Assembly: GCA_035480635.1 (NCBI GenBank)
Contig: DATIHN010000005.1
Location: forward strand, 1-35,371
Length of the DNA stretch: 35,371 nucleotides
Reading direction: 5' to 3'
DNA from: Candidatus Saccharimonadales bacterium
GTDB lineage: Bacteria > Patescibacteriota > Saccharimonadia > UBA4664 > DATIHN01
Shown: positions 11,817 through 29,858 of the stretch, in pieces
Numbering within the stretch: the stretch's first letter is position 1
How the letters are laid out: every line of letters starts with the position of its first letter
Notes under the pieces: generated by a model
Databases searched by the model: none
The model's input: only the letters and a program-made list of their open reading frames with translations
What the model was told of the DNA's origin: nothing
Program-made: the position numbers and the translations under genes

Positions 11817-12287
11817 ATGAATGTAGCAAAAAAAGACTTTTATTTAACCACTGAAGGCGTCTCCAAGCTCAAGGAAGAGCTAGACGACCTGATTTCCAAT
11901 CAGCGGCCCAAAATTGCCGTTCGACTCAAGGAAGCCAAAGAATACGGCGATTTGAGCGAAAACGCCCAGTGGGATGACGCTAAAGATCAGCAGGCCTTCG
12001 TTGAGGGTCGGATTTCTGAAATCGAAAATATTTTGAAGCATTCTCAAATCATCGAAGCTCCCAAAGATGCGAGTATTGTTGGACTCGGTTCGATCGTGCA
12101 CGTAGAGGTGGAAGAGGGCGTTCAGAAGTATCACATTGTCGGTTCACCTGAAGCCAATCCAGATGAAGGTAAAATTTCTAACGAATCACCGATTGGCAAA
12201 GCTTTGATGGGCTGCAAGAAGGGTGATGAGGTCGAAGTCGAAGTTCCCTCTGGCACCATTACCTACAAAATCAAACGAATCGAATAA
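11817..12287 (+). CDS. greA: Transcription elongation factor GreA
   Basis: Encodes 156 residues, the standard GreA length. It enters the RNA polymerase secondary channel and stimulates cleavage of backtracked RNA. The N-terminal coiled coil holds LKEAKEYGDLSENAQWDDAK with the acidic tip; the C-terminal FKBP-like domain ends SPIGKALMGCKKGDEVEVEV. I start at ATG 11817 because of AAGGAGGT 7 nt upstream; the frame stays open to 11745 but the extra residues do not match GreA. The gene's 3' end and terminator are copied 691 bp downstream. Confidence 0.97.
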   Translation: MNVAKKDFYLTTEGVSKLKEELDDLISNQRPKIAVRLKEAKEYGDLSENAQWDDAKDQQAFVEGRISEIENILKHSQIIEAPKDASIVGLGSIVHVEVEEGVQKYHIVGSPEANPDEGKISNESPIGKALMGCKKGDEVEVEVPSGTITYKIKRIE

Positions 12288-12339
12288 GTTGCACTTAACT
12301 TAAGCTCTTCAAGTCACTTGGCTGGAGGGTTTTTGTTAT
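12261..12339 (+). repeat. greA tail and terminator, copy 1
   Basis: This 79-nt segment comprises the last codons of greA (encoding TYKIKRIE), its stop, and its terminator-promoter module. It is repeated at 12952-13030 with 4 differences by my alignment. This copy is the functional greA end. Confidence 0.9.
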
Positions 12340-12342
12340 ACT
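12305..12342 (+). terminator. greA terminator fused to the promoter of the next gene
   Basis: TCAAGT (12309-12314) / ACTTGG (12316-12321), with outer CTC/GAG, is followed by GGTTTTTG. An extended -10, TGTTATACT (-10 hexamer 12337-12342), directly follows and lies 6 nt before the next ATG. Confidence 0.65.
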
Positions 12343-12348
12343 TACGGA

Positions 12349-12918
12349 ATGTCATGGCATGCTGTTAGCGGTATTGCAGCGGGAGTTATCTTCTCGGTAA
12401 GTTCTGGGTGGTATGTCCTTGATATTGCCAGAAGTAAAGTAGTGGTGAGTATTGCGACCTTTGCTGTCTTGGCGTTAATTACGGTTTCGCAGCTGGTGTC
12501 CTTGATTGCCGAGCACGTCTGGGTAGTAGTGCCGTTTACGCTAGTCGGCGCAGTTGCAAATGTCTTAATCATTATACTGTCTTATAAGAACAAACGAATT
12601 TACTTTGACTGGTTGGATAAGGTGGCTCTGCTGGGCGCAATAGCTGGACTTATTCTATGGGCATATACAAAAGATGCTGCGCTCAATCTTTACGTTCTCT
12701 CGGCTGTGACCTTTGTCACGTTCATTCCACTAGTCGTTAAAACATTCAAGAACCCTAGTTTCGAAACAGTTAAGCCCTGGAGGTTAAATCTACTTGCTTC
12801 AACTTTTCTACTATTATCAGTAAATTCAATTGCTGCAGTAGTCTGGGTGGTCCCAGTTAGGCAATTCGTTTGCTCTGTATTAATTAACATTGCAGTGGGA
12901 AAAGCCCAAAAGGCCTAA
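12349..12918 (+). CDS. Integral membrane protein, unknown (possibly PQ-loop-like)
   Basis: Encodes 189 residues with about six hydrophobic segments (roughly residues 4-24, 30-52, 57-77, 88-106, 112-132, 146-170). There is no signal peptide and few charged residues. The pattern of short helices with SGWYVLDIARSK near the first loop and LVVKTFKNPSFET in the middle loosely recalls small PQ-loop/SWEET-type membrane proteins; this is a weak resemblance. An extended -10 TATACT lies 6 nt before the ATG, so the mRNA would be leaderless. It is the first cassette of the accessory region after greA. Confidence 0.6.
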   Translation: MSWHAVSGIAAGVIFSVSSGWYVLDIARSKVVVSIATFAVLALITVSQLVSLIAEHVWVVVPFTLVGAVANVLIIILSYKNKRIYFDWLDKVALLGAIAGLILWAYTKDAALNLYVLSAVTFVTFIPLVVKTFKNPSFETVKPWRLNLLASTFLLLSVNSIAAVVWVVPVRQFVCSVLINIAVGKAQKA

Positions 12919-12951
12919 GTTACAAAGCTATTTGGGGTTCTAACTTCCATC

Positions 12952-13030
12952 ACCTACAAAATCAAACGAATCGAATAAGATGCACTTAACTTAAGCTCTC
13001 CAAGCCGCTTGGCTGGAGGGTTTTTGTTAT
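12952..13030 (+). repeat. greA tail and terminator, copy 2 (non-coding duplicate)
   Basis: A 75/79-nt match to the end of greA lies here with no greA gene before it. It starts directly after an 18-nt terminator-arm motif (12937-12954). Three of the four differences fall in the hairpin: one turns a T-G pair into C-G, and two together turn a T-A pair into C-G, so pairing is kept. This indicates a duplication or recombination event at the greA 3' end. Confidence 0.9.
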
Positions 13031-13033
13031 GAT
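12996..13033 (+). terminator. Terminator plus extended -10 before the M16 gene
   Basis: CCAAGC / GCTTGG with a 1-nt centre and outer CTC/GAG, then GGGTTTTTG. It is followed at once by TGT-TATGAT (-10 at 13028-13033), 6 nt before the ATG at 13040. It is part of the duplicated greA-tail unit. Confidence 0.6.
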
Positions 13034-13039
13034 ATAGAA

Positions 13040-14320
13040 ATGGACCTTGCAGCATTTGGTATTAAAAAACATACATTTGCACTAAAGAATGGTTTGCGGG
13101 TTGTTTTGTTTGAACGTGCAAATATGCCAATTCATTTGCGAGCAGCCTTCAAAGCAGGCTGCAAGTATGACCCACCGGGCAAAGAAGGGTTGGCACATTT
13201 CTCAGAGCACCTTCTATTAGCTGGGACTAAGCGCTTTCCCTCAAGTACAGAGCTTGGGGCCTTCATCGAGCAATATGGTGGATGGTACAACGCCAATACA
13301 CCAAAAGAAGAGATCAATCTAGACATTGCTATTGGTGATCCGGCAGATACTGAGGTTGCTTTCGAGATGATGGGAGAAATGTTAACTACCTCACTCTTTT
13401 TGCCACAATCAATCGTGAGCGAAAGAGAGTCTGTTTTGGGTGAGGTCGGTGAGTGGGAGGCAAATCCTTCCAAACAAATCTGGGAAGTTCAAAACCGGCT
13501 TTATTTCCAAGGCACGCCATTGGGTCGGCATGGAGTTGGCACTACTTCCGGAGTTAAGGCATCGAAGCGCGATGACCTTGTTAGCTTTGTTAGTGAAACT
13601 ATCACATCTGATCGGGGAGTAGTAGTAGTCGCTGGTGGTATATCCAAACAAGATGCCGAGAATCTCTCAGAGATTCATTTCGGCAACTTACATCGATCGC
13701 GGGCAGATTTTTCTGACGGCGAGGCAAAAGTATTGCGCCAGAAGCCTATTCTAATTGTCCCAAAGGAAAACCGACAGATTCAATTGACCCTGGGTTTTAG
13801 GACTTGTCCCATGGCAGGCGCAGATGAAGCGGCGCTCGACGTGATTTCGGCAGTTTTAGGCCGCGGTGGTTCTTCGTCTTTGCAAAGGGTACTTAGGCAT
13901 GATCAGGCTCTGGTCTATTCCGTGTGGGCAGAAAGTGTGAACTTAGCGGCTGGAGGGTGGATATCGGTCGAGACTACGGCAGCGAAAGCGAAATTACAGC
14001 AAATTTTAGACGCCATATGTTTGGAGTTCCGACGTGTATACAAGGGTAAATTGAGTCAGGCAGAAATTGACTTAGCCAAAGCCAAGATCGTGAAATCAAC
14101 ACGTCTCTACTTACAATCATCATACGACGTAGCCCTCAGTCACAGTCGCTATAGTCTGCAGGTCGACTCGGGCTGGGACGTCTTTGATTATGACAAAAGA
14201 GTTTCCGCAGTAACCGCAGATGACATTAAGCGTGTAGGTAACAAGTATTTCAGGCCAGGTGAATGGTATCTTGGCCTCATTGGCGATGTTAAAGAATCAG
14301 ACTTTTCTGTAAATTATTAA
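13040..14320 (+). CDS. M16-family zinc metallopeptidase
   Basis: Encodes 426 residues, matching single-unit M16B peptidases that act as dimers or with a partner. The inverted zinc motif HFSEH (His53, Glu56, His57) and the downstream Glu (Glu135 in SVLGEVGEW) are present, so the enzyme looks catalytically intact. It continues with a second M16 half (from about residue 220, QIQLTLGFRTCP). No signal peptide is visible, so a cytoplasmic peptide-degrading role is likely. It is a single-gene unit with its own extended -10 promoter at a leaderless distance. No second M16 gene is adjacent. Confidence 0.9.
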   Translation: MDLAAFGIKKHTFALKNGLRVVLFERANMPIHLRAAFKAGCKYDPPGKEGLAHFSEHLLLAGTKRFPSSTELGAFIEQYGGWYNANTPKEEINLDIAIGDPADTEVAFEMMGEMLTTSLFLPQSIVSERESVLGEVGEWEANPSKQIWEVQNRLYFQGTPLGRHGVGTTSGVKASKRDDLVSFVSETITSDRGVVVVAGGISKQDAENLSEIHFGNLHRSRADFSDGEAKVLRQKPILIVPKENRQIQLTLGFRTCPMAGADEAALDVISAVLGRGGSSSLQRVLRHDQALVYSVWAESVNLAAGGWISVETTAAKAKLQQILDAICLEFRRVYKGKLSQAEIDLAKAKIVKSTRLYLQSSYDVALSHSRYSLQVDSGWDVFDYDKRVSAVTADDIKRVGNKYFRPGEWYLGLIGDVKESDFSVNY

Positions 14321-14321
14321 A

Positions 14322-14360
14322 GTTATAACTTCCAATTATTCGGAGGGTTTTTGTTATACT
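14322..14360 (+). terminator. Terminator-promoter module between M16 and methyltransferase genes
   Basis: GTTATAACTTCCA starts 1 nt after the M16 stop. CTTCC (14329-14333) pairs with GGAGG (14342-14346), then GTTTTTG, then TGT-TATACT (-10 at 14355-14360), 6 nt before the next ATG. Terminator and promoter share the T-run. Confidence 0.65.
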
Positions 14361-14366
14361 TGCGGC

Positions 14367-15128
14367 ATGACAAAATTTAATGATTATGATTCTGTAGCAG
14401 AAAAACGCCAGCAACGCTTCTTAAAGGGGGAGAGCATGCCTCACCGTTTTGTGGAGAAGCCAGCAATGGAGAAAATGCTACCACCGCTTGCGGGGCAGAA
14501 GGTTTTAATGATTGGCTGTGGTACTGGGGAGGAATCTAGGTTGCTAGTGGAGAAGGGGGCCAAGGAGCTGATTGGTATTGATACGTCGAAAGTATCAATT
14601 GACTTGGCGACCAAGACATATCCAAATCACCAATTCCAGGTTGGTGACATGAATAAATTAGACTTTGATGATGATGAGTTTGACTTTGTATATAGCAGCT
14701 TAGCAATCGACTACACAGATAGTCCTCTTGGTGTCTATCGAGAAGTGTATCGAGTTCTAAAACAGGGTGGGGTATTCCAGTTCTCCGTCCCACACCCCGT
14801 TAGATGGTCTTCCGAGATAGTTGAGATTGACGGTGTTCGTACAAGAGTACTTGGCTTTTCTGAAAATAAAGAAAAGCCTCGTGTTTATGGGAACTACAAT
14901 GACTATGCATTACATGAGCATGAATTTACGATATCGAACGGTGATCCGATCAGAGTTTGGGTCGGTCCACCCAGTATGCATTTTCAAATGCTTAAAGAAG
15001 CTGGATTTAGGGTTGAGGAATTTGTCGAAACAAAAGCGGTTGTTGAAGCCAAGAAAGTTGATGAATATTACTTCGATAGATTTAGCAGACTACCACAATT
15101 TGTACTCTTTCAAGCACTAAAGTTCTAA
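14367..15128 (+). CDS. Class I SAM-dependent methyltransferase
   Basis: Encodes 253 residues. The Rossmann-type SAM-binding motif I is VLMIGCGTGEES (about residues 46-57), followed by acidic LIGIDTS, then DFVYSSLAIDYT and YRVLKQGGVFQFSVPHP, all typical of Methyltransf_11-type enzymes. The substrate is unknown; the C-terminal half has no motif I can tie to a pathway. An extended -10 is 6 nt before the ATG. The stop codon lies inside the recurrent GTTCTAAC motif (15122-15129), so the gene boundary coincides with the repeated module. Confidence 0.85.
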   Translation: MTKFNDYDSVAEKRQQRFLKGESMPHRFVEKPAMEKMLPPLAGQKVLMIGCGTGEESRLLVEKGAKELIGIDTSKVSIDLATKTYPNHQFQVGDMNKLDFDDDEFDFVYSSLAIDYTDSPLGVYREVYRVLKQGGVFQFSVPHPVRWSSEIVEIDGVRTRVLGFSENKEKPRVYGNYNDYALHEHEFTISNGDPIRVWVGPPSMHFQMLKEAGFRVEEFVETKAVVEAKKVDEYYFDRFSRLPQFVLFQALKF

Positions 15129-15139
15129 CTTCCATCACC
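15122..15139 (+). repeat. Recurrent 18-nt terminator-arm motif (one of five copies)
   Basis: The motif (start GTTCTAACTTCC) is identical here and at 12937-12954, and near-identical at 18533-18550, 17579-17596 and 14322-14339. Each follows an accessory gene. At this copy the usual GTTTGGAGGG partner arm is missing, so no terminator forms. Confidence 0.8.
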
Positions 15140-15149
15140 ACCCGGATAA

Positions 15150-15177
15150 TTGACTTACGTTTTGTCTATGCTAGAGT
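15150..15177 (+). promoter_or_regulatory. Promoter of the leader peptide and unknown gene
   Basis: TTGACT (15150-15155), 16 nt, TAGAGT (15172-15177) preceded by TGC (extended -10). Seven nucleotides separate it from ATG 15185. Confidence 0.6.
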
Positions 15178-15184
15178 GAGTGAC

Positions 15185-15271
15185 ATGCAAGTTAATAAAT
15201 CCAACTATCATTTCTGGTTTAGCACAAACTCTTCCCGGAAGAGGTTGGTTGTTGTACCCAGAGTTAACTAA
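15185..15271 (+). CDS. Possible 28-residue leader peptide
   Basis: ATG 15185 lies 7 nt after the -10, the spacing of leaderless starts in this window. The frame encodes 28 residues including SSRKRLVVVPRVN and ends in TAA. It spans GGAAG (about 15237-15241), which can pair with part of the terminator stem downstream. A leader peptide controlling attenuation is possible; chance is also possible for so short a frame. Seen: promoter, ORF and terminator order. Inferred: function. Confidence 0.35.
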   Translation: MQVNKSNYHFWFSTNSSRKRLVVVPRVN

Positions 15272-15298
15272 GCACTTATTTCTCAGACACCACACCCA

Positions 15299-15326
15299 AT
15301 CCCTTCCTAGAAGGGATTTTTCTTTT
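15299..15326 (+). terminator. Intrinsic terminator in the leader of the unknown gene
   Basis: ATCCCTTC (15299-15306) pairs with GAAGGGAT (15310-15317) around CTA and runs into TTTTCTTTTC. It lies 40 nt before the Shine-Dalgarno of the gene at 15367, so it would stop transcription before the gene unless prevented. Confidence 0.75.
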
Positions 15327-15366
15327 CTAGCAAGGAAGCACCTTTACCCCACAAAATGGAGGCACT

Positions 15367-16131
15367 GTGTATACCGAGCCGCAGAAAGTTTGGTCAGAAC
15401 TTGCCGACAGGCGTAAGAACAGGGAATTGTTGGACCAGGTTCTGGATTATCTAGGAGGGTCACTCCCAGGGGGCTGGCCAGAGGATAAACCCATAGCCAC
15501 GCTAAATCGGTATGTTGCAACTGCGCGGTTGGAGGACGTGGTTTTTGCGCATTCGGCTGCAAGTCTGAATCTGTGGCCTTATTGGCCAACCTATCTGGCT
15601 GAGCGCTTCACTAGCACCAATCCCGAGAAGGTGAGCTGCGTTCGGCCAAGAGTGCATCGGCCTAAACTCCAGGCTTCGCGAAGTTGGCTGGTTAAAGATC
15701 ACCAACAGCTGCCCGGCCAGACCCTGGGCGGTATCCGCGTAGGTGAGGTAAGTCTACCAGAGGTCCATGATCAGGCTCGTCAGTTGGTGCTGGATCCCGA
15801 GATGTCGGGCAATACCTTCGATGTTTCGACCTGGAATCAAGCTCAGGCTGTACGATTTGGGTCCAACGGATCCGGTCGTTTGGCACCACACTACTACCAT
15901 GCGGTAATGGCTCTATACGTTTGCCACGGTGTCTTGTTTGAGGACTTCGATGGTGGGCCAAATGCGGAGTCGGGTCTAGGCAGCTTTGTGGCGGAAGTCG
16001 TTAGGCCGGCTTTCGAAGCCGTAAGCCAAACGTTCGGTGTAAAACCGCTTATCGTTAGGTTGCCATATACAGCTGGGTTTCTGGACTACCCAGGAGCTTG
16101 CGCAGCGGTATTCGATCGCTTCCGCGAGTGA
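15367..16131 (+). CDS. Unknown protein, 254 residues
   Basis: I start at GTG 15367, supported by GGAGG (15358-15362) 4 nt upstream. The protein begins MYTEPQKVWSELADRRKNRE. It is soluble-looking and rich in Trp, Tyr and Pro in the first half (LWPYWPTYLAERF), with no signal peptide or membrane segment. A repeated V-R-P pattern and RLAPHYYHAVMALYVCHGVL in the middle do not match a family I know. It differs from its cassette neighbours in using a Shine-Dalgarno and a long leader with a terminator, which resembles regulated genes. No function can be given. Confidence 0.65.
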   Translation: MYTEPQKVWSELADRRKNRELLDQVLDYLGGSLPGGWPEDKPIATLNRYVATARLEDVVFAHSAASLNLWPYWPTYLAERFTSTNPEKVSCVRPRVHRPKLQASRSWLVKDHQQLPGQTLGGIRVGEVSLPEVHDQARQLVLDPEMSGNTFDVSTWNQAQAVRFGSNGSGRLAPHYYHAVMALYVCHGVLFEDFDGGPNAESGLGSFVAEVVRPAFEAVSQTFGVKPLIVRLPYTAGFLDYPGACAAVFDRFRE

Positions 16132-16142
16132 GGAGTAAGGGT

Positions 16143-16173
16143 CCCGGGCATGCACTAACAATGCATGCTCGGG
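16143..16173 (+). other. Long hairpin between the unknown gene and the M28 gene
   Basis: CCCGGGCATGCA (16143-16154) pairs with TGCATGCTCGGG (16162-16173) with one G-T wobble. No T-run follows, so it is not a standard terminator. It could protect mRNA ends or reduce read-through. Confidence 0.55.
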
Positions 16174-16202
16174 AAACCAAATCATTTAAAATAGGAATAG
16201 CT

Positions 16203-17144
16203 ATGAGTATCAACCAGACAATCAAAAAATTAACTTCACTGGAGAATCGCCTTGGGCTTGGCGAGGAAAAGGCCAGCAGCTTACTTTCTGGACTCTTGGA
16301 TAACCTGAGCGTTAAACATACCATCCAGAGCTTCTCAAGCCAGACACCTAACTTCATCAAGGCCGAACTAGTTGTTGATGGTAAAAACATTGATTGTTTA
16401 CCATGCGGCCTGGTGAGCGGTGAGATTAATGACAACAGCAACTTAATTAGCTCATTGACTAGTTCGCAAGACTTTCTAAGAACACCAAACATTAACTTCA
16501 ACCCGAAGAGTGATGCTATCTGTCTTTCTAACTTCTACTTCGCACCAGCCTTGGCCATTTCTCGGCTCGATGTTGAGAAGGTGATAAGGGCCAGAAACAT
16601 TAAGGGAGTTGTTAAAGTAAAGCCGGTTGACTACACAGCCAAAAATATCTTATGCGGGAACACTACTAATCCTACCCACATCATCTTCGCTCACTATGAT
16701 TCATACTTTGCGGGAGCAACCGATAATGCGGCTGGGGTGGCAGTATTGCTCGATCTGGTACAAAAGAACCGACAGCTCCTGGAGAGCATCCTGTTTGTTT
16801 TTGCAGGAAATGAAGAACTATCGTACGATCAGCCGATTTACTGGGGGCGTTGTTTCCGGCAGTTTAATGAGGCTAATCCTGGTTTGCTTGCCCAAGCAAA
16901 AGGAGTACTTGTTGTCGACAGCGTAGGTGATGGTCCACCAATTGCCGAACGAGACCCCGGATTGATCAATCTGGCATTTCCACTGGGTGACTTCCCTGAG
17001 ATAATTGCCAAAACCGCAATCGTTACGGGAGACTTTAATAGCCTGATGACTGTGTACCACAGTGCCGCTGATATAATCGGCCGGCTTAGTAATAAGCACT
17101 TAGCCGACACAGCATTACTTTTGGAGCAGCTCCTTGTAGATTGA
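16203..17144 (+). CDS. M28-family zinc peptidase
   Basis: Encodes 313 residues from ATG 16203; the frame continues upstream to 16098 but overlaps the previous gene and lacks family similarity. The M28 metal and catalytic residues are all visible: His164 and Asp166 (HYDS), Asp174 (ATDNAAG), Glu204/Glu205 (NEEL), Asp239 (VVDSVG) and His286 (YHSAAD). Family members are aminopeptidases or related hydrolases with two zinc ions. No signal peptide is seen, so it is probably cytoplasmic. A -10-like TAAAAT lies about 10 nt before the ATG. Confidence 0.87.
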   Translation: MSINQTIKKLTSLENRLGLGEEKASSLLSGLLDNLSVKHTIQSFSSQTPNFIKAELVVDGKNIDCLPCGLVSGEINDNSNLISSLTSSQDFLRTPNINFNPKSDAICLSNFYFAPALAISRLDVEKVIRARNIKGVVKVKPVDYTAKNILCGNTTNPTHIIFAHYDSYFAGATDNAAGVAVLLDLVQKNRQLLESILFVFAGNEELSYDQPIYWGRCFRQFNEANPGLLAQAKGVLVVDSVGDGPPIAERDPGLINLAFPLGDFPEIIAKTAIVTGDFNSLMTVYHSAADIIGRLSNKHLADTALLLEQLLVD

Positions 17145-17148
17145 CTTT

Positions 17149-17156
17149 GTTATACT
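17149..17156 (+). promoter_or_regulatory. Extended -10 promoter of the NUDIX gene
   Basis: TGT-TATACT ends 6 nt before the ATG at 17163. The M28 stop is at 17142-17144, so the whole intergenic space is 18 nt. The terminator half of the module is missing here, so M28 transcripts may continue into the NUDIX gene. Confidence 0.5.
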
Positions 17157-17162
17157 TACGGC

Positions 17163-17579
17163 ATGAAAATTCCGCTCGATTTAATGGGTGACCAAGACAC
17201 AGCGGTTGTGGCCATTATTCTTCGAGAAGGCAAAATCCTTCTAGGTCTAAGAGAATACGCAACGGGGAACAGGGTTTGGACAGTACCGGGTGGTCGATGT
17301 GACAAGGACGAAACGCTTGAGCAGACGCTAAGGCGAGAAACACAAGAAGAAGTTGGCATATCAGACTTAAGGATAGAGAAGTACATTGGCTCGGTTAATG
17401 GAGCCAAGACGGGAGACACAGTTCATATGTATTATTGCGAGTCTAATCAAGAGCCGATTAATAAAGAACCTCATAAGTTCAATTCATGGAAGTGGTTTTC
17501 GCCTGAGGAGATTCCAGACAACTTTATCAACCAATCAGCCCAAAAAGTATTAATAGAGTTTATTCACTCTATGAAGTAG
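17163..17579 (+). CDS. NUDIX hydrolase
   Basis: Encodes 138 residues. The NUDIX box GX5EX7REUXEEXGU spans residues 44-66 (from GRCDKDETLEQ to EEVGI), complete except that one hydrophobic position is Thr. Such enzymes cleave nucleoside diphosphate derivatives, for example oxidised dNTPs. WKWFSPEEIPDNF late in the protein is typical of MutT-like members. Substrate is not predictable. The stop codon (TAG) runs into the repeated terminator-arm motif. Confidence 0.9.
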   Translation: MKIPLDLMGDQDTAVVAIILREGKILLGLREYATGNRVWTVPGGRCDKDETLEQTLRRETQEEVGISDLRIEKYIGSVNGAKTGDTVHMYYCESNQEPINKEPHKFNSWKWFSPEEIPDNFINQSAQKVLIEFIHSMK

Positions 17580-17619
17580 TTCTAACCTCCATAACCGTTT
17601 GGAGGGTTTTTGTTATGAT
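17579..17619 (+). terminator. Terminator-promoter module between NUDIX and APH-like genes
   Basis: CCTCCA (17586-17591) / TGGAGG (17600-17605), 8-nt loop, then GTTTTTG, then TGT-TATGAT (-10 at 17614-17619), 9 nt before the next ATG. This is the cleanest copy of the recurrent module. Confidence 0.75.
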
Positions 17620-17628
17620 AGGACAGAT

Positions 17629-18513
17629 ATGAAACTCGAACCCTCAATGATCGAAGATAAATGGCCACTTACGAGAGTCTCACTAGGTTCATCGCTCAAG
17701 GGCGTAGGTGGTCAGCGCCACGTTCAGGTGTTGAGTGCAAGTGAAGGCAGATACATTTGTAAAACAGCAGATATATCGAAATCTCTGGACGATCTGGCCT
17801 CCGATCTACTAATCTTCGATTTCCTTCGTACTAAAGGCTTCCGTTATATCACTAGATTGCTAAAAACAAATAACGACCAACTTTTTGCAGATATCTCGGG
17901 CAGCCTCACTTACCTACTAGAATTTGTTGAAGGTAAAGAACCAGCTCCTACCCCTAAGAACTATGCTCAGCTCGGTAAAATAACAGCAGAGCTTAATAGC
18001 ATTGATGGCTATCCAAATGCGACGAAGTTTATTCCAGCCACAATAATCAAGCAAGACTTACCCAAACTGACTATCGGAAAAAGTTTTCATTATGAATATC
18101 TGAAACTCTTAGAAACATTACCGTCATTTGAGGACCTACCAACCGCTTTAATCCACACCGATATTGCTCTAGTGAACTCTATACAGAAAGAAGACGGAAG
18201 TATTGTATTGATAGATTGGGACGATATTGGAATAGGTACGAGGATACTCGATGTAGCCTTCCCATTGATCCAGCAATTCGTATCCGAAGATTGTGAGTAT
18301 GATGAGACTAACGCAAAAGCTTTCTACACAGCCTATAGACAAACAGTGAGATTAACTGACAGAGAACTGAATAACATCTTCAGTGCCGCCTTATTTATCG
18401 CCATGATGTACATTATTTACGGTGATTCCGATAAGCGTTGGCAACGAATACGCTGGGCTCTAAGAAACCGTGAGTTGTTAGAAAACGCTTTTCGGAATAA
18501 TACCAGCCAGTAA
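17629..18513 (+). CDS. Aminoglycoside phosphotransferase (APH)-fold kinase
   Basis: Encodes 294 residues from ATG 17629; the frame extends to 17599 but that would run through the promoter. The catalytic loop HTDIALVN gives His176, Asp178 and Asn183, and the metal-binding Asp196 is in LIDWDDIGIG. The hinge region YLLEFVEGKE is also typical. The family includes antibiotic, choline, homoserine and methylthioribose kinases. Nothing in the sequence identifies the substrate, and resistance should not be assumed. The gene is AT-richer than the core genes nearby. Confidence 0.82.
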   Translation: MKLEPSMIEDKWPLTRVSLGSSLKGVGGQRHVQVLSASEGRYICKTADISKSLDDLASDLLIFDFLRTKGFRYITRLLKTNNDQLFADISGSLTYLLEFVEGKEPAPTPKNYAQLGKITAELNSIDGYPNATKFIPATIIKQDLPKLTIGKSFHYEYLKLLETLPSFEDLPTALIHTDIALVNSIQKEDGSIVLIDWDDIGIGTRILDVAFPLIQQFVSEDCEYDETNAKAFYTAYRQTVRLTDRELNNIFSAALFIAMMYIIYGDSDKRWQRIRWALRNRELLENAFRNNTSQ

Positions 18514-18532
18514 ATCAGCCGTCAGAAAGCTA

Positions 18533-18580
18533 GTTCTAACTTCCATCATCGTTTGGAGGCGTTTTTGTATCTGGTACAAT
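18533..18580 (+). terminator. Terminator-promoter module before lysS
   Basis: CTTCCA (18540-18545) / TGGAGG (18554-18559), then CGTTTTTG. A separate extended -10, TGG-TACAAT (hexamer 18575-18580), lies 7 nt before the lysS ATG; TTGGAG (18553-18558) could serve as -35 at 16 nt. This closes the accessory region. Confidence 0.7.
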
Positions 18581-18587
18581 ACTGGTT

Positions 18588-20111
18588 ATGACTGATCAAC
18601 CCGTAAGCAAATACTGGCTCGATTTGGCGGCTGAGGCCATTGGGCAACAGTTTCCAACTGGCGACATCGTCATCTCTAGCGGGATTTCGCCGTCGGCTTC
18701 GTATCATATTGGCCACTTTCGCGAGATCCTAACGGCCGATGCTCTGGCTTGGGCGCTCAGGCAGGCTGGGCGGAAGGTGCGCCACCTCCACGTGGTTGAT
18801 AACTTTGATCCATTACGCAAACGTTATGACTTTTTGCCGCCCGAATTCGAAAATTACGTTGGCCAGCCAATCTGTTTGATCCCGGATCCGATTGGTGATT
18901 GCCATCCAACTTACGCCGAGCACTTCTTCCAAGAATTCATTGGTTACGCCCGAACTATGGGGATTACTGAAATCGAAATCATTCACTCTTACGAGGATCT
19001 TTACAAATCCGGCCGCATGGCCAAACGAATCGAGCAGGTACTGTCTCAGGCCGATCAAGTCAGAACCATTTTTACTCAGACCAACCGGTCTCTGCCACCA
19101 GATTGGACGCCGGTTCAGGTTATGGATGAAAACAACATCTTCTCGAATGCCGATGCCAAAGATTGGGATCAAAAGCAGCAGACCATAGCCGGCGTGCCCT
19201 ATGATGCTGGCCGGGTCAAATTGAACTGGCGTTTGGATTGGCCAGCCCGCTGGGCCGAGCTGGGCGTGATGGTCGAGCCCTTTAGTGCTCAAGAACATGG
19301 TGCGGCCGGTGGATCTTACGATACGGGGGTGGAGTTCGCTCGCCAGATCTTTGATATCACCCCGCCGATCCCAGGGGCTCGTTATGCCAATATCCACTTA
19401 ATTGGCGATACCAAAAAAATGAGTTCATCCAAAGGCAATTTGATTACCCCAAAGGAGGCGCTTGAAGTCATGCCGCCGGAAATTTTGCGTTATTTTGTGG
19501 TGCGATCCAGGCCGGAGCGGACACTTTACTTTGATCCGGGCTTGGGGCTGTTCAAACTAATCGATGAGTTTTCGCAAATTCAGAGCGGTCAAAACCAAGA
19601 GTTCAAGGAAGCTTATCAATTTGCTGTGGGTGTTCAAACCGAGCAGGTGATCACCAGCGTGCCGTTCAATCACCTGGTTACGGCCTATCAAACCACCAGT
19701 GGCAACAAAACCGAAATCCTAGCCATTCTGGCACGCAGCGGCTGGCAGCCTAGTGCGGCTGAGGGCAAGGTAATCGATAAAGAATTGGCCTACGTCAAAA
19801 ATTGGTTGGCCAAATATGCCCCAGCCGAAGTTAAGTTTGAGGTTCAAGCTAAGTTACCAAAAGTTAACCTGACCGAGCCTCAAAAGGCCTTTTTAGCCAA
19901 ATTGGCCGACCGGATCGCAGATCAAAAACAGCCTGATGCTCAGGCCATCCACGATGCTATCTATGAAGCCAAGGGCGAACTTGCACCAGTGGAGGCTTTT
20001 CAAACCCTCTATCAAGTTATCCTCGGCCAAGACCATGGCCCCCGGGCTGGTTGGTTTCTGGCCAGCTTAGAGCACGATTGGTTACTCAAACGCTTGCGAC
20101 TTGAGGCCTAA
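18588..20111 (+). CDS. lysS: Lysyl-tRNA synthetase, class I
   Basis: Encodes 507 residues. The class I signatures are HIGH (residues 40-43 in SPSASYHIGHFREI) and KMSSS (277-281 in DTKKMSSSKGN). These Rossmann-fold signatures with SGISPS at the start identify the archaeal-type class I LysRS, not the class II LysRS used by most bacteria. It charges tRNA-Lys. The C-terminal third is helical, as expected for the anticodon-binding part. It has its own leaderless-type promoter. Acquisition of class I LysRS is scattered in bacteria, spirochaetes and alphaproteobacteria being known examples. Confidence 0.92.
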   Translation: MTDQPVSKYWLDLAAEAIGQQFPTGDIVISSGISPSASYHIGHFREILTADALAWALRQAGRKVRHLHVVDNFDPLRKRYDFLPPEFENYVGQPICLIPDPIGDCHPTYAEHFFQEFIGYARTMGITEIEIIHSYEDLYKSGRMAKRIEQVLSQADQVRTIFTQTNRSLPPDWTPVQVMDENNIFSNADAKDWDQKQQTIAGVPYDAGRVKLNWRLDWPARWAELGVMVEPFSAQEHGAAGGSYDTGVEFARQIFDITPPIPGARYANIHLIGDTKKMSSSKGNLITPKEALEVMPPEILRYFVVRSRPERTLYFDPGLGLFKLIDEFSQIQSGQNQEFKEAYQFAVGVQTEQVITSVPFNHLVTAYQTTSGNKTEILAILARSGWQPSAAEGKVIDKELAYVKNWLAKYAPAEVKFEVQAKLPKVNLTEPQKAFLAKLADRIADQKQPDAQAIHDAIYEAKGELAPVEAFQTLYQVILGQDHGPRAGWFLASLEHDWLLKRLRLEA

Positions 20112-24928: not shown

Positions 24929-25945
24929 ATGCCGAAGCGTCAAGTCAGGACTGTGGCCAAGGGCCTCAAGCTTGACGATCCCAACGAATTGCTCGCAGTC
25001 CTCGTGGCCGCGGGTCTCGCGAAGGAAGGTGCAAAGGACACGGCACAGGTGGATGAAGCTCAGGCTCAAGCGGCCTGGGAAGCGTCTATCGCTGTTGGTC
25101 CTTCGGGCGATTCGTCCGTTCAGCCCACCGTAGAGGTGACTGCGAACGATCTCGTCGAAGAGTTCAGGAGTACGTCACTGAAGGACTTCACCACGGCCTA
25201 TCTGGCCGAGGTAGCACCCGATCTTCCGCGCATCAAGCGCAAAGGTGAGATGGTTGTCCCAAAGACCACAGCGATCCCGCCAGAAAGGCTGGCGAGCTTG
25301 CGCGAGCTTCTCGTTTGGCTGTCTGCCTGCCAGCAGGTCGTCGACGAGGACATCGAGAACCTCAACTCCTGGACAGCCCCCTCAGCCGAGGATCTGCTCC
25401 GCATGCTTTACAGCGGGCTGGATCAGATCTCCTACACGGGAATTTGTGGTCACGAAGTCGAGCAGAGCATCGCCAACTACACCGAGCGTTACGACTCCAT
25501 GATGGAGGGGAACTCTCGGTTATCGGTGCTGCTCAGGCTTTGCAGCAAGTGCCGCGCTGATCGCGTGTCGCTGCTGCAGCTTGGTCCCGGAGCCGCAAAC
25601 TTCGAGTCCATCTGCGACTTCTGCGACGGACCGACGTTTGCCGGACGGGATCCGGCCGCATCGTTCGCGCAGAGCCGGGGAGACATTTGGGAGAACTTCA
25701 TCTCTCAGATTTTCCCGGTCTACTTCTTGCCGACCCGACTTGGCCCTCGTCATCCCATGCGTCACTATCGCCATGTTGCAATAATGGCGAAGGCACGCGG
25801 AGATTTCGAGAGCTGGGAAAAGCTTTTCCGGGCTGAGATAGCTTCAATCGTCTCAGCTCACCCTGAGATGGGTGCGGAGCTCAAGGCCGGAATGAACAAA
25901 ACCATCCACGACAAGCGCGTGGATCTCGGACTCGAGGAGGCATAG
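24929..25945 (+). CDS. Unknown protein with zinc-ribbon-like cysteines (high-GC block, gene 1)
   Basis: Encodes 338 residues. There is no signal peptide and no membrane segment. The N-terminal 80 residues are acidic and Ala/Glu/Gln-rich. The central part is helical (LRELLVWLSACQQVVDEDIE). A pair LCSKC ... ICDFC (around residues 210-235) could bind zinc. The C-terminus is again charged and helical. I know no matching family. GAGAGAG lies about 5 nt before the ATG, so initiation is by Shine-Dalgarno. Codons end in G or C far more often than in the flanking core genes, which points to a different origin. Two nucleotides separate it from gene 2. Confidence 0.7.
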   Translation: MPKRQVRTVAKGLKLDDPNELLAVLVAAGLAKEGAKDTAQVDEAQAQAAWEASIAVGPSGDSSVQPTVEVTANDLVEEFRSTSLKDFTTAYLAEVAPDLPRIKRKGEMVVPKTTAIPPERLASLRELLVWLSACQQVVDEDIENLNSWTAPSAEDLLRMLYSGLDQISYTGICGHEVEQSIANYTERYDSMMEGNSRLSVLLRLCSKCRADRVSLLQLGPGAANFESICDFCDGPTFAGRDPAASFAQSRGDIWENFISQIFPVYFLPTRLGPRHPMRHYRHVAIMAKARGDFESWEKLFRAEIASIVSAHPEMGAELKAGMNKTIHDKRVDLGLEEA

Positions 25946-25947
25946 AA

Positions 25948-26919
25948 ATGTCGAGCGATGACGTCCAGCGCCTGCTGGAACAAGCCAGGACCAATGCCGA
26001 CGTCGGAGCGACTGCCCGCGCGGTAGGAGCTACGGAGCCGGCAACGCCAACCGACCTGGTGCTGACGCTGGAGGATTCCGGCGATGGCTACCAGGTCATT
26101 CGAATCGGTGATCCGGGCGATCCGGATGAGCACTACTTGTTGTTCTGGCCGGGTAGCGGAGGCACCGCGAACCGCGACCGCTGGATCGACCTGGTACGGG
26201 TGTACGGCACACACGGTGCACTCGAGGCTCTCGAAGATGGGCGGACCAACGGTGTTGACCCTCTCCCTCCATTGGGGGACGGCACCAGTGCAGCAACCCC
26301 GCCGGCAGGTCCGTACGATTGGGCCGCAGCCGGTACAGCAACTCCGCCGGCGGCACCGCTGCCGGCTACACCATCCACGCCGGCTCCAACCGGTGCGAGT
26401 TCCGGCTCGTTGCCGGGAGGAGGAAAGACCATGTCCACCGTCAAGACCTCGGCCGAGCTCAAGGCCGAGAGGAAAGCGAAGGTGTCGTCCACCGAGAGCG
26501 ATGAGCTCCAGGCGGCGCACTTCCGCATCGACATCCGCCAGGCTGGCGGGGACCAGACCGAGATCGAGGCCATCAAGGCGCAGATCAAGGCCGACTACCC
26601 CCAGCTGGTGTCGATCATGCCCGACGTCTTCGGCGTCGAGTCTGTCACGTGGGCTGCGTCCAACGGGGTCAACCCGTCGGCAACTACACCGGCCGTCACG
26701 GACGATTCGATCATCCGCACTGTCGGCAAGTACTCGGTCCGCAAGGGCTCGGGCAACCTGCTCGAGATCTGGGTCGAGGACAACGGTGTGTGGAGCGACA
26801 GCGGCCACAGCTTCCCCGACCAGGCGGAGTACGAGCTCGAGCTCAAGAAGCACGACTTCGTCAAGGCCGTCGAACGCCAGCTCAAGGGCAGGGGTGTTCT
26901 GAGCTGGCTCAGCAACTAG
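25948..26919 (+). CDS. Unknown two-part protein with Pro/Ala/Thr linker (high-GC block, gene 2)
   Basis: Encodes 323 residues. The N-terminal part (about 1-100) contains YQVIRIGDPGDPDEHYLLFWPGSGG. A low-complexity Pro/Ala/Thr linker covers about 105-160. The C-terminal part (about 162-323) has KAERKAKVSSTE and FGVESVTWAASNG, and ends KAVERQLKGRGVLSWLSN. Met162 (ATG 26431) is preceded by GGGAGGAGG (26415-26423), so a separate C-terminal product could be made from the same frame. No family recognised. Very GC-rich. Long open frames on the other strand and in other frames here are composition artefacts. Confidence 0.68.
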   Translation: MSSDDVQRLLEQARTNADVGATARAVGATEPATPTDLVLTLEDSGDGYQVIRIGDPGDPDEHYLLFWPGSGGTANRDRWIDLVRVYGTHGALEALEDGRTNGVDPLPPLGDGTSAATPPAGPYDWAAAGTATPPAAPLPATPSTPAPTGASSGSLPGGGKTMSTVKTSAELKAERKAKVSSTESDELQAAHFRIDIRQAGGDQTEIEAIKAQIKADYPQLVSIMPDVFGVESVTWAASNGVNPSATTPAVTDDSIIRTVGKYSVRKGSGNLLEIWVEDNGVWSDSGHSFPDQAEYELELKKHDFVKAVERQLKGRGVLSWLSN

Positions 26920-26979
26920 CCCAACCGACCGGTCCCGGGGCACCTGCCCCGAGACCCCAACCCCGCGAGGGGAGGGAAC

Positions 26980-28533
26980 ATGCACGTATTCACCGGCATC
27001 AGTACGGTGTTTGGGTGCCTGGTAGTGGTCGGCTTGCTGGCTGCGATCCTGTTGCACTGGACACCCCTGAAGCCCTCGATGGTCATCCTGACGGCGATCA
27101 CGGCCTGGGTCACACTGATGTGGCTCGTCGGCAGTTCGGCGGATTGGTGGCTGTTCACGCACTACGCCCTAGGCTGGGTGGTGCTCAGTTGGCTGCTGCT
27201 CATAGTGGCCTTCGTCATCACCTTCATCGGCCACTGGTTGTGGTTGCGTCCGGTGTTCGTCCTGTTGTTGCTCATCCCGTTGATCTTCTATGGGGTCAGC
27301 AACTTCGACATCCACCACGGCCACGGCACCGCCACGGCCGACGGTTACCAACCGACATCTACCACCGAGGCTCCGAAGGCCAGCACCAAACCGCCAACGT
27401 TGCCAAAGGGCTTCGTGGCGGTACGGGGAACAACCTGCACCAAGGGGTACGCCTCGACCGGCTACTGGTTGACATCCGGCTTCGTCATCTGCACGAGCGG
27501 CGCGACGTTGGTCCTGGCCAGCCCGGCGGGCAAGTGCCCCCAGGGGTACAAGCCGGGAGCGACGTTCCCGGCCACCAGCCGGAAGCGCTGCTTCTACAAC
27601 GGGACGCGATTGAGCCAGGCCGAACGGAACCGCGTCATCAGGCGGAGCCTGATGGCCTTCGGTTTCAAGCCCGGTCAAATCAAGACCGGCGCCGCTGCCG
27701 ACTTGAATGGTGCGCCTCAGGAGCGCGGCATCGCCGCCTTCACGCACCAGACCATCATGGTCAAGCCGCAGTTGGTCGCCTACGTCAACGGCTCCTCTCC
27801 GGAGTCGATGGCCACGCGACAACGGCTGCAGCAGTGCCTGGCGCCGATGCCGGGTGAGTTCCAACGGGCGTTGAACGGTGAGGGTTACACCCTCGTCAAG
27901 TTCACCGTTCCTGTGGAAATCCAGGGCACGACCTACTACAACCAGGCCACGCACCAAGTGCTGACGGCTGATGGATGGCGTACGGTTGGCGCTAACGACG
28001 GTTACTGGGTCTTCCAGACCCGGAACGGCACGTTGGTTCCATGCGCGATTGTGCGAGCCGACTGCGGCAACTCTCGCGTTACGGCCATTCGGCCGGTCCC
28101 ACCGAACGAGGCTTCGCCTCCGCCGTCGGTGGAGGTACCGCCGAAGAAGAACTGCGCCATCGTGGATCCCGACCCTCAGACCGCACCAACGTGCGGTAGC
28201 AACATGAGCGGGCCTGACCAGCAGCCGGTGCAGGAGCATCACCAAGCCCACGTACCCGGGTACAATCCGGGTGGCTTGGAGAACATCCAGGCAATCCAAC
28301 CGGTTGGGTCACCAAACCCAGCGCAACCGATTGCCCACTCCCCAGCCGGCAACAACTCCGGTTCAACCACCGGGGGCTCGGCTGGTGCCGACACCACTAC
28401 CGGTCAGGTCCAGGGCCCCGCGCCCGACCAGAGCGGTGGCACACACGGTACCGACCAGAATTCGGAAGGTACCGGCCAGAACAGTTCCGGCAGCCCTACA
28501 GTATGCAGCGGGGATCCAACCGCTAGCTGCTGA
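26980..28533 (+). CDS. Membrane protein with long extracytoplasmic Cys- and Gly/Ser/Thr-rich part (high-GC block, gene 3)
   Basis: Encodes 517 residues; GGGGAGGG (about 26968-26975) lies just upstream. The first 110 residues form about four membrane segments (roughly 4-27, 33-52, 60-82, 86-108). The rest has many cysteines (TTCTKGYASTG, FVICTSG, GKCPQGYKPG, KRCFYNG, VPCAIV, ADCGNS), then a Pro- and Gly/Ser/Thr/Gln-rich tail ending in PTVCSGDPTASC. The layout suggests a membrane-anchored surface protein with disulfides. No LPxTG is present and no family is recognised. It probably works with genes 1 and 2, since all three share strand, composition and spacing. Confidence 0.72.
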   Translation: MHVFTGISTVFGCLVVVGLLAAILLHWTPLKPSMVILTAITAWVTLMWLVGSSADWWLFTHYALGWVVLSWLLLIVAFVITFIGHWLWLRPVFVLLLLIPLIFYGVSNFDIHHGHGTATADGYQPTSTTEAPKASTKPPTLPKGFVAVRGTTCTKGYASTGYWLTSGFVICTSGATLVLASPAGKCPQGYKPGATFPATSRKRCFYNGTRLSQAERNRVIRRSLMAFGFKPGQIKTGAAADLNGAPQERGIAAFTHQTIMVKPQLVAYVNGSSPESMATRQRLQQCLAPMPGEFQRALNGEGYTLVKFTVPVEIQGTTYYNQATHQVLTADGWRTVGANDGYWVFQTRNGTLVPCAIVRADCGNSRVTAIRPVPPNEASPPPSVEVPPKKNCAIVDPDPQTAPTCGSNMSGPDQQPVQEHHQAHVPGYNPGGLENIQAIQPVGSPNPAQPIAHSPAGNNSGSTTGGSAGADTTTGQVQGPAPDQSGGTHGTDQNSEGTGQNSSGSPTVCSGDPTASC

Positions 28534-28712: not shown

Positions 28713-29858
28713 ATGCAAATAGTCAAACGATTTGCGATGGCGCTTAGTGTGCTGGGTATCGTGGCCATGCCATATACCGCTACAGCTGCTAATGTCACCA
28801 TCGAAAGTACCACCCAGGTAGCCAATCAGACTGCCGGTGATACTCAATACAAAGATAGCGTTGCTGCTAAAGTTGACGACGTGGTTAAGGTCCAAGTTTG
28901 GTACCACAACCGCCAGGAAGCTGACAGTGGCCTAGTCGCTAACAATCTAAAAGTCAAAATTAACATTCCGACTAATCCTGGTACTAACCAAACGATTACC
29001 GGAACCGTTTCCAGCGATAATTCCAATACCGTAACCGATACTGCTGGGGTAACGCTGTCGCTAGCCAACGCTCACCTGGAATATATTCCCGGTAGCGCTT
29101 ACTGGCGCCACAACGTTGGTGATAACACCAACATTAACTACCAAACCCAACATATCAGTGACAACGTTGTTGGTGGGGGAGTAGTTCTAGAGAACCTCAA
29201 GCCATGCTTCAACTTTGAAGCCACCGTTACGGTCATGGCGCGGGTGGTCGCAAATGGTGTTTCAATCACCAAGCAAGTTCGCAAAGTCGGTGATACCACC
29301 TGGCACACCGATATCAACGCTAACGCTGGGGATACGGTTGAATACCTTATTACCTTTAAAAACGAAGGTAACACGGTATTGAACAATGTCATCGTGGGCG
29401 ACAACCTGCCGCCTCACGAAACTTACGTTAACGGTACCACCATGCTGAAGAACGGAGCCAACCCCAATGGGATCAAGATTACCAACGACAATATCGCCAA
29501 CGGCGGCATTAACGTCGGTAACTATACTCCGGGTGCCGTCGGTTACGTTTGGTTCCAAGTTAAAGTTGGGACCGATCTAAGCGACGGTTGCCACGCTTTG
29601 CAGAATGTCGGTTTGGTCCGGCCGCAGGGTATGAACGAGTTCTTCAATACCGCAACAGTTAATGTTTGCGTGAAGACTCCGCCTACCACCCCTCCAACTC
29701 CGACCACTCCTCAGACACCCCAAAGCAACTTACCGCAAACCGGTAGCGAGAGCGCTCTAGCTGGTGTGACGAGCACTGGTGTACTAGGTTACGCCGTGCA
29801 CGCCTACCGCAAGAGTAAGCGCTCGTTGGTTGATGCGCTCAAAAACATCAAGCGCTAA
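28713..29858 (+). CDS. LPQTG cell-wall-anchored surface protein with DUF11-like repeats
   Basis: Encodes 381 residues. It has a signal peptide (MQIVKRFAMALSVLGIVAMP, cleavage probably after ATAA). Beta-rich, Asn/Thr-rich domains follow; the second (about residues 178-300: VRKVGDTTWHTDINANAGDT, YLITFKNEGNTVLNNVIVGD) fits the DUF11 type. A Pro/Thr linker leads to a sortase motif LPQTG at 340-344, a weakly hydrophobic stretch and a basic tail. Such a protein would be fixed to peptidoglycan by a class of sortase not seen in this window. AAAGGAGG (28699-28706) precedes the ATG. Base composition matches the host, not the high-GC block. Confidence 0.88.
   Translation: MQIVKRFAMALSVLGIVAMPYTATAANVTIESTTQVANQTAGDTQYKDSVAAKVDDVVKVQVWYHNRQEADSGLVANNLKVKINIPTNPGTNQTITGTVSSDNSNTVTDTAGVTLSLANAHLEYIPGSAYWRHNVGDNTNINYQTQHISDNVVGGGVVLENLKPCFNFEATVTVMARVVANGVSITKQVRKVGDTTWHTDINANAGDTVEYLITFKNEGNTVLNNVIVGDNLPPHETYVNGTTMLKNGANPNGIKITNDNIANGGINVGNYTPGAVGYVWFQVKVGTDLSDGCHALQNVGLVRPQGMNEFFNTATVNVCVKTPPTTPPTPTTPQTPQSNLPQTGSESALAGVTSTGVLGYAVHAYRKSKRSLVDALKNIKR

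Follow-up and report, generated by a model that had tools for sequence, protein, structure and literature searches.

A probable displaced cassette array between greA and lysS of a Saccharimonadales bacterium, and the tRNA-Asn-anchored sites to which its repeats lead

Seven extra genes (A to G) occupy an insertion of ~6.3 kb between the housekeeping genes greA and lysS, and we regard them as probably a displaced, partly degraded array of single-gene cassettes, derived from a class-wide system that is anchored at tRNA-Asn genes and probably uses serine integrases. A conserved 30-nt site, its position at stop codons, its anchoring behind tRNA-Asn and the exchange of apparent cassettes bordered by the core of the site can be read from sequence comparison. 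More tentatively, large serine recombinases and the 3' end of tRNA-Asn may together form an integron-like capture system, present throughout the class, in which single genes with their own promoters pass across families. The stretch of DNA analysed, here called the window, is 35,371 nucleotides long and belongs to a genome of 788 kb in 27 contigs, 97% complete, whose size and gene content suggest a Saccharibacterium-like member of the candidate phyla radiation.

The insertion and its repeats

The same penicillin-binding-protein gene precedes greA in nearly all of the 29 relatives compared, and lysS lies closely 3' of greA wherever the compared stretch extends to it. The greA-lysS gap at the 16 junctions compared ranges from almost none to ~250 nt, and the usual spacer is a terminator followed by a -10 box just 5' of the ATG. 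An earlier interpretation made from the window alone (the sequence-only reading) had taken the region for an accessory insert, and this comparison bears it out: the interval in relatives is a few hundred nucleotides at most, and none of genes A to G is found between greA and lysS in any of the relatives compared. The G+C content falls from ~51% in the surroundings to 43-50% inside the insertion. Rfam and tRNA scans of the window gave no match, and the window contains no tRNA gene. The features of the region are as follows.

11817-12287, + strand: greA, the upstream flanking housekeeping gene (mrdA-greA-lysS order kept in relatives)
12256-12339, + strand: greA 3' end and terminator, first copy of an 84-bp repeat (family D1), ending in GGAGGGTTTTTGTTAT
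12340-12355, + strand: extended -10 and leaderless start of gene A, ACTTACGGAATG
12349-12918, + strand: gene A, 189-aa protein without a Pfam or NCBIfam family, a membrane protein according to the sequence-only reading
12937-12954, + strand: left part (18 nt) of a cassette-end site, fused at CCATCACC to the second greA-tail copy
12947-13030, + strand: second copy (94%) of the greA tail and terminator (family D1)
13040-14320, + strand: gene B, M16 peptidase
14322-14357, + strand: degenerate site, GTTATAACTTCCA, loop and CGGAGGGTTTTTGTTAT, then the gene C promoter
14367-15128, + strand: gene C, SAM methyltransferase
15122-15146, + strand: best-preserved site of the window, GTTCTAACTTCCATCACCACCCGGA, 25 of 30 positions, overlapping the gene C stop codon
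15367-16131, + strand: gene D, 254 aa, no family
16203-17144, + strand: gene E, M28 peptidase-like
17145-17162, + strand: junction reduced to the promoter part CTTTGTTATACTTACGGC, before gene F (repeat family D4)
17163-17579, + strand: gene F, NUDIX hydrolase
17579-17616, + strand: site with an internal deletion, GTTCTAACCTCCATAACCGTTTGGAG joined to GGTTTTTGTTAT, beginning on the last base of the stop codon
17629-18513, + strand: gene G, APH-like kinase
18533-18570, + strand: last site, GTTCTAACTTCCATCATCGTTTGGAG joined to GCGTTTTTGTAT, then the lysS promoter region
18588-20111, + strand: lysS, the downstream flanking housekeeping gene

The first repeated arm, GTTCTAACTTCCA, occurs six times in the window with up to two mismatches (12937, 14322, 15122, 16525, 17579 and 18533); shuffled sequences gave a mean of 0.59, and none reached six. 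All five copies listed in the sequence-only reading are thereby confirmed, as is the identity of two of them (the 18-mers at 12937 and 15122), and the copy at 16525, which lies within a gene, is added here. A second arm, GGAGGGTTTTTGTTAT(A/G), is present four times (12324, 13015, 14342 and 17601; shuffle mean 0.10), and a search of the whole 788-kb genome with up to one mismatch returned four matches to GGAGGGTTTTTGTTAT, all of them those in the window. The second arm is thus not the standard intergenic sequence of the genome; had it been, the sequence-only reading would have failed on its own terms. Both conditions that this reading had set for its refutation turn out in its favour. The half-modules that it described are also real: the site at 15122 lacks the second arm, and positions 17145-17162 hold the promoter part CTTTGTTATACTTACGGC alone. 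Its statement that modules separate successive genes does not apply to genes D and E (15367-17144), between which no module lies.

Part of the repetition, missed in the sequence-only reading, has another origin. The stretch 12947-13030 is an 84-bp direct repeat, 94% identical to 12256-12339, which comprises the end of greA with its terminator and folds as a strong hairpin (z -3.8); the two copies flank gene A. The terminator at 13000-13030 comes from this duplication rather than from the module. With the repeated greA tail on both sides of gene A, one insertion or more is likely to have taken place here, either by homology or through a junction at CCAT(C/T)ACC.

The window sites run through the left arm to GGAG and then continue as GGTTTTTGTTAT or GCGTTTTTGTAT, whereas copies on another contig of the same genome (C24) have CCAATATGCTTATGCTTAAACGGCCGAAGGGTCGTTTTTGTTATAC there; diverging at this point, the window copies look like deletion forms, and none retains the full core. 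Their arms fold as short hairpins followed by a T-run. The arms match those of the C24 array (GTTCTAACTTCCATCACCGTTTGGAG), the promoter TTTTTGTTATACTTACGG[AC]ATG is common to both arrays, TTGTTATACTTRCGGMATG is shared by two of the three C24 sites and three window junctions, and TTTTTGTTATACTTACGGAATG of the gene A promoter is identical to the promoter after a C24 site. Since arms and promoters match in this way, we take the genes between greA and lysS to be former members of the C24 cassette pool. The hairpin form of the window (TAACYTCCA..GGAGGGTTTTTG) had four unrelated matches in 84,980 species genomes, approximately the chance level, and none in viral contigs. The degenerate hairpin form is local, and it was the arm alone that led to a wider site.

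Gene B has one close relative in the class, 53% identical and in genome G008, and otherwise distant paralogues; 3' of that relative, beside another tRNA gene (L255:2760-2830), is GGCTCAAGAGAGCCAATATTAAGCATAAG, a sequence similar to the sites of the present genome in their core and right-hand part. The best relative of gene C among the loci compared is a cassette gene in the array of another family (L164:11114-11863), with a full site after it. Gene G had no match in the 392 other genomes of the class (393 in total; E 1e-8). Upstream of gene D, the stretch 15185-15326 contains a 28-aa open frame (MQVNKSNYHFWFSTNSSRKRLVVVPRVN) and then a hairpin with a T-run (15298-15326), which together look like a leader-peptide attenuator. 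Genes D and E, with their own leader and terminator, need not be cassettes.

Elsewhere in the window, three consecutive open reading frames at 24929-28533, with no NCBIfam match, have a G+C content of 59-66% against 51% around them and are probably foreign DNA. Positions 28713-29858 encode a surface-type protein with DUF11-like repeats and, by eye, an LPQTG sorting motif near the C-terminus.

A 30-nt site behind tRNA-Asn across the class

A search of the class with the 18-mer returned clustered copies in other families and on C24. Alignment of these showed a site of 30 nt, GTTCTAACTTCCATCACYACNNRGAGCCAA, whose left part is the first arm. The conserved element is this site rather than the terminator-promoter module proposed earlier, and the window retains mainly its left part. 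Aligned sites (alignment A1) have fixed spacing, with columns 1-12 and 24-29 near-invariant. Among the 393 genomes of the class, a sequence-model search detects the site in 69, which represent 53 of its 153 genera; each has one to six copies, usually clustered. Longer arrays also contain a second type of site, GTTATAACTTCCTCTATYGTTGTGAGCCA, and additional left arms joined to an unchanged GAGCCA core.

The arrays consist of tandem, mostly single-gene units in the same orientation, one site each, with a median spacing between sites of 1.1 kb. Measured from a stop codon on the same strand, 66 of the 97 sites fall between -12 and +45 nt, as do 5% of random positions, and 15 overlap the stop codon; for the opposite strand the number of sites in this range is three. 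A -10-like hexamer stands just before an ATG after 37 of the 97 sites, compared with 6% of random stretches. The 80 genes directly 5' of sites fall into 76 families and encode proteins of median length 177 aa. Their cargo (NUDIX, GNAT, methyltransferase, RimK-like, P-type ATPase, S66 peptidase, phosphatase, Fic, APH and unknown genes) comprises the same gene classes as the window. In four loci (L153, L154, L141 and L149) several sites coincide with contig ends or lie close to them, as though strain differences had interrupted the assemblies at these points.

A tRNA gene is present in 27 of 53 array loci and, apart from one tRNA-Gln, is tRNA-Asn(GTT). Genomes with both a site and a tRNA-Asn were taken from independent whole-genome searches, with the tables matched by hand: in 20 genomes, all 33 sites on a contig with tRNA-Asn are downstream of it, on the same strand and 0.5-55 kb away. 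One array locus only, L163, has a site before its tRNA-Asn and on the other strand. The tRNA-Asn 3' end, GGAGCCA, matches the site core (G)GAGCCA over ~7 bp, and within a genome it is followed by sequence similar to that which follows the sites, as with AAGAACTTATGCTTAAAAGACC in G033. The idea that the site is part of a tRNA-like T-arm was rejected, as just its last seven bases match tRNA-Asn. In the present genome tRNA-Asn is on contig C18 and the array on C24, and the C18-C24 junction is unassembled. Arrays of this type have their regular place at the 3' end of tRNA-Asn and not between greA and lysS. Genome G112 (contig C23, L204-L206) has, 38 kb downstream of its intact tRNA-Asn gene, a partial copy of that gene. 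The stretch with this copy is oriented and also encodes a second tyrosine recombinase (C23:36330-36848), so that the cassette array has probably been pushed away by a prophage-like element inserted in the same tRNA.

Exchange of cassettes between lineages is supported by comparison of unlike arrays. A 1,066-bp gene unit is 96% identical between genomes of two families (G110 of f9 and G331 of f20), and both of its borders are at the core, GGGAGCCA|AG. On the right, identity ends just after the GAGCCA of the site; on the left it ends at GGGAGCCAAG, beyond which G331 has its tRNA-Asn gene and G110 a different site. Identity ends at the same core in other pairs as well (L083/L153 on the right, L083/L129 on the left), and some shared stretches are a site plus terminator alone. 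These genomes are one per species, and among them no strain-level empty site was found. The portable gene unit of the sequence-only reading, always equipped with promoter and terminator, was right in kind, because units of that sort are exchanged between lineages at a conserved site, but the unit itself was misread.

Homologous recombination alone between repeated terminator-site sequences, for example after natural DNA uptake and with no site-specific recombinase, is unlikely to account for all this. The 84-bp duplication is what would remain if a circle with a related greA tail had entered by one crossover, and the shared stretches of site plus terminator are of the kind expected; however, unlike arrays cease to be identical at the short core GGGAGCCAAG, and the one-strand anchoring at tRNA-Asn and the adjacent integrases would need another reason.

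Candidate recombinases

In 14 genomes, the present one included, tRNA-Asn has a convergent large serine recombinase gene 1-13 kb downstream; by domain position 13 of the 14 lie within ~5 kb, where a rough estimate predicts less than one. Six of their reading frames, again including that of the present genome, end 29-41 nt inside the tRNA-Asn gene, as in an element integrated there. The enzyme of the present genome (L197:2836-4443, contig C18) has a complete set of Resolvase, Recombinase and zinc-ribbon domains. Two small genes, likely of DNA-binding type, precede it (L197:1973-4443), and at the contig end is a gene starting MCGRFDLIKK that appears by eye to be SRAP-domain-like. No large serine recombinase lies beside the window array. 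Among 19 array genomes checked, a serine recombinase is within a few kilobases of tRNA-Asn in five, and two (G033 and G331) have no resolvase-domain match. A single tRNA-Asn-specific clade of these enzymes was considered and rejected, since they fall into three clades. Serine integrases have half-sites of ~25 bp and a two-base crossover (PMC3783163), with which the ~23-nt length of the conserved arm is consistent.

It is still less probable that the single XerC/D-like tyrosine recombinase of the host acts in trans to move the cassettes. Such a mechanism has been proposed for the dif modules of plasmids, in which 28-bp sites with two inverted 11-bp Xer arms flank the gene on both sides. Each of the 19 array genomes checked has at least one such gene, and in the present genome the sole PF00589 protein scores best as XerD/XerC (XerD 256.9 bits; integron integrase 156.2 against a cut-off of 265). 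However, alignment A1 has no evident pair of inverted 11-bp arms, the gene lies away from the arrays, and serine integrases are the better match for a very short shared core at a tRNA gene that has a serine recombinase as neighbour. BLAST with the XerD of the present genome revealed no tyrosine recombinase among the open reading frames of the array loci.

That the motif is a conserved 3'-untranslated or terminator element rather than a recombination site is very improbable. It does follow stop codons and precede terminators, and the window arms fold as hairpins with a T-run, but it follows few and unrelated genes in each genome (the 76 families above), lies wholly downstream of tRNA-Asn on one strand where this is testable, and delimits a gene unit shared by horizontal transfer. 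An ordinary integron remnant, an attC cluster without intI, is hardly tenable: one site per gene, uniform orientation and mixed cargo agree with it, and TTCTAAC is one position off the R'' box RYYYAAC, but five of the 97 sites have GTTRRRY in the 110 nt downstream, where 12 would be expected, two of the 97 have an exact complement to the left box, no integron integrase (IntI) was found in the present genome, and the anchor is tRNA-Asn. The identification of the site as attC was rejected on the depletion of the R' partner box downstream.

Our preferred source for the window array is a tRNA-Asn-anchored cassette system. A cassette would consist of a terminator, an extended -10 promoter, a gene starting almost at the first transcribed base, and a site that overlaps the stop codon or lies just after it; the site would combine the conserved left arm of ~23 nt with a core, (G)GAGCCA, matching the tRNA-Asn 3' end. 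A circular cassette, itself a presumed intermediate, would use the core to recombine with another site or with the 3' end of tRNA-Asn; the tRNA would stay intact, with the next cassette following it, and the enzyme would most likely be a large serine recombinase. Because its sites lack their right part and the greA tail is duplicated, the array between greA and lysS probably arose by off-target or homologous insertion and subsequent decay. No second copy of this array was found, and it is for this reason that we infer, rather than observe, the movement of its seven genes as cassettes.

Known systems and meaning

Integrons and the integrase-less arrays known as CALIN (PMC8618304) likewise have tandem, same-orientation single-gene cassettes with a 3' recombination site each and diverse cargo, and their arrays can be off-target and without an integrase. 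Unlike them, the present system has the tRNA-Asn 3' end instead of attI as anchor, no attC partner box and, in this genome, no tyrosine integron integrase, and many of its cassettes appear to carry their own promoter. Additive flexible genomic islands of Methylopumilus (tRNA-Lys 20-mers; PMC10872708) resemble it in repeated insertion behind one tRNA gene and in the copies of the tRNA 3' end left between variable genes. However, the tRNA repeat is 20 bp there and ~7 bp (GGAGCCA) here, where an extra 23-nt non-tRNA arm is kept across families and the units are mostly single genes. Part of the tRNA 3' end is repeated at borders in the class-wide arrays, and no tRNA stands at the start of the window array.

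Islands of large serine recombinases (PMC3783163) share with our system a short common core, asymmetric sites, half-sites of ~25 bp and a recombinase beside the attachment site, whereas most units here are single genes that stand in tandem and lack a recombinase. Tycheposons, as described in PMC10872708, are also tRNA-gene-bordered cargo elements of genome-reduced bacteria, but are given there as 4-200 kb long with a tyrosine recombinase. Each of the three kinds (integrons, additive islands at tRNA genes, serine-integrase islands) is already known, and their combination is unreported in the literature searched. That search, for cassettes, integrons and serine recombinases in Saccharibacteria and Patescibacteria, was non-exhaustive, with preprints and most subscription journals outside it, and gave no report of such arrays.

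To our knowledge, few ways of acquiring genes have been recognized in bacteria with genomes as reduced as these. With a defined site, a constant location at tRNA-Asn and a candidate enzyme, gene exchange in them becomes testable. The site allows arrays to be read in any genome, and their cargo (NUDIX, acetyltransferase, methyltransferase, Fic and kinase genes) to be tracked between species. If serine recombinases do act here, the capture of single-gene cassettes would have evolved outside the tyrosine-recombinase integron.
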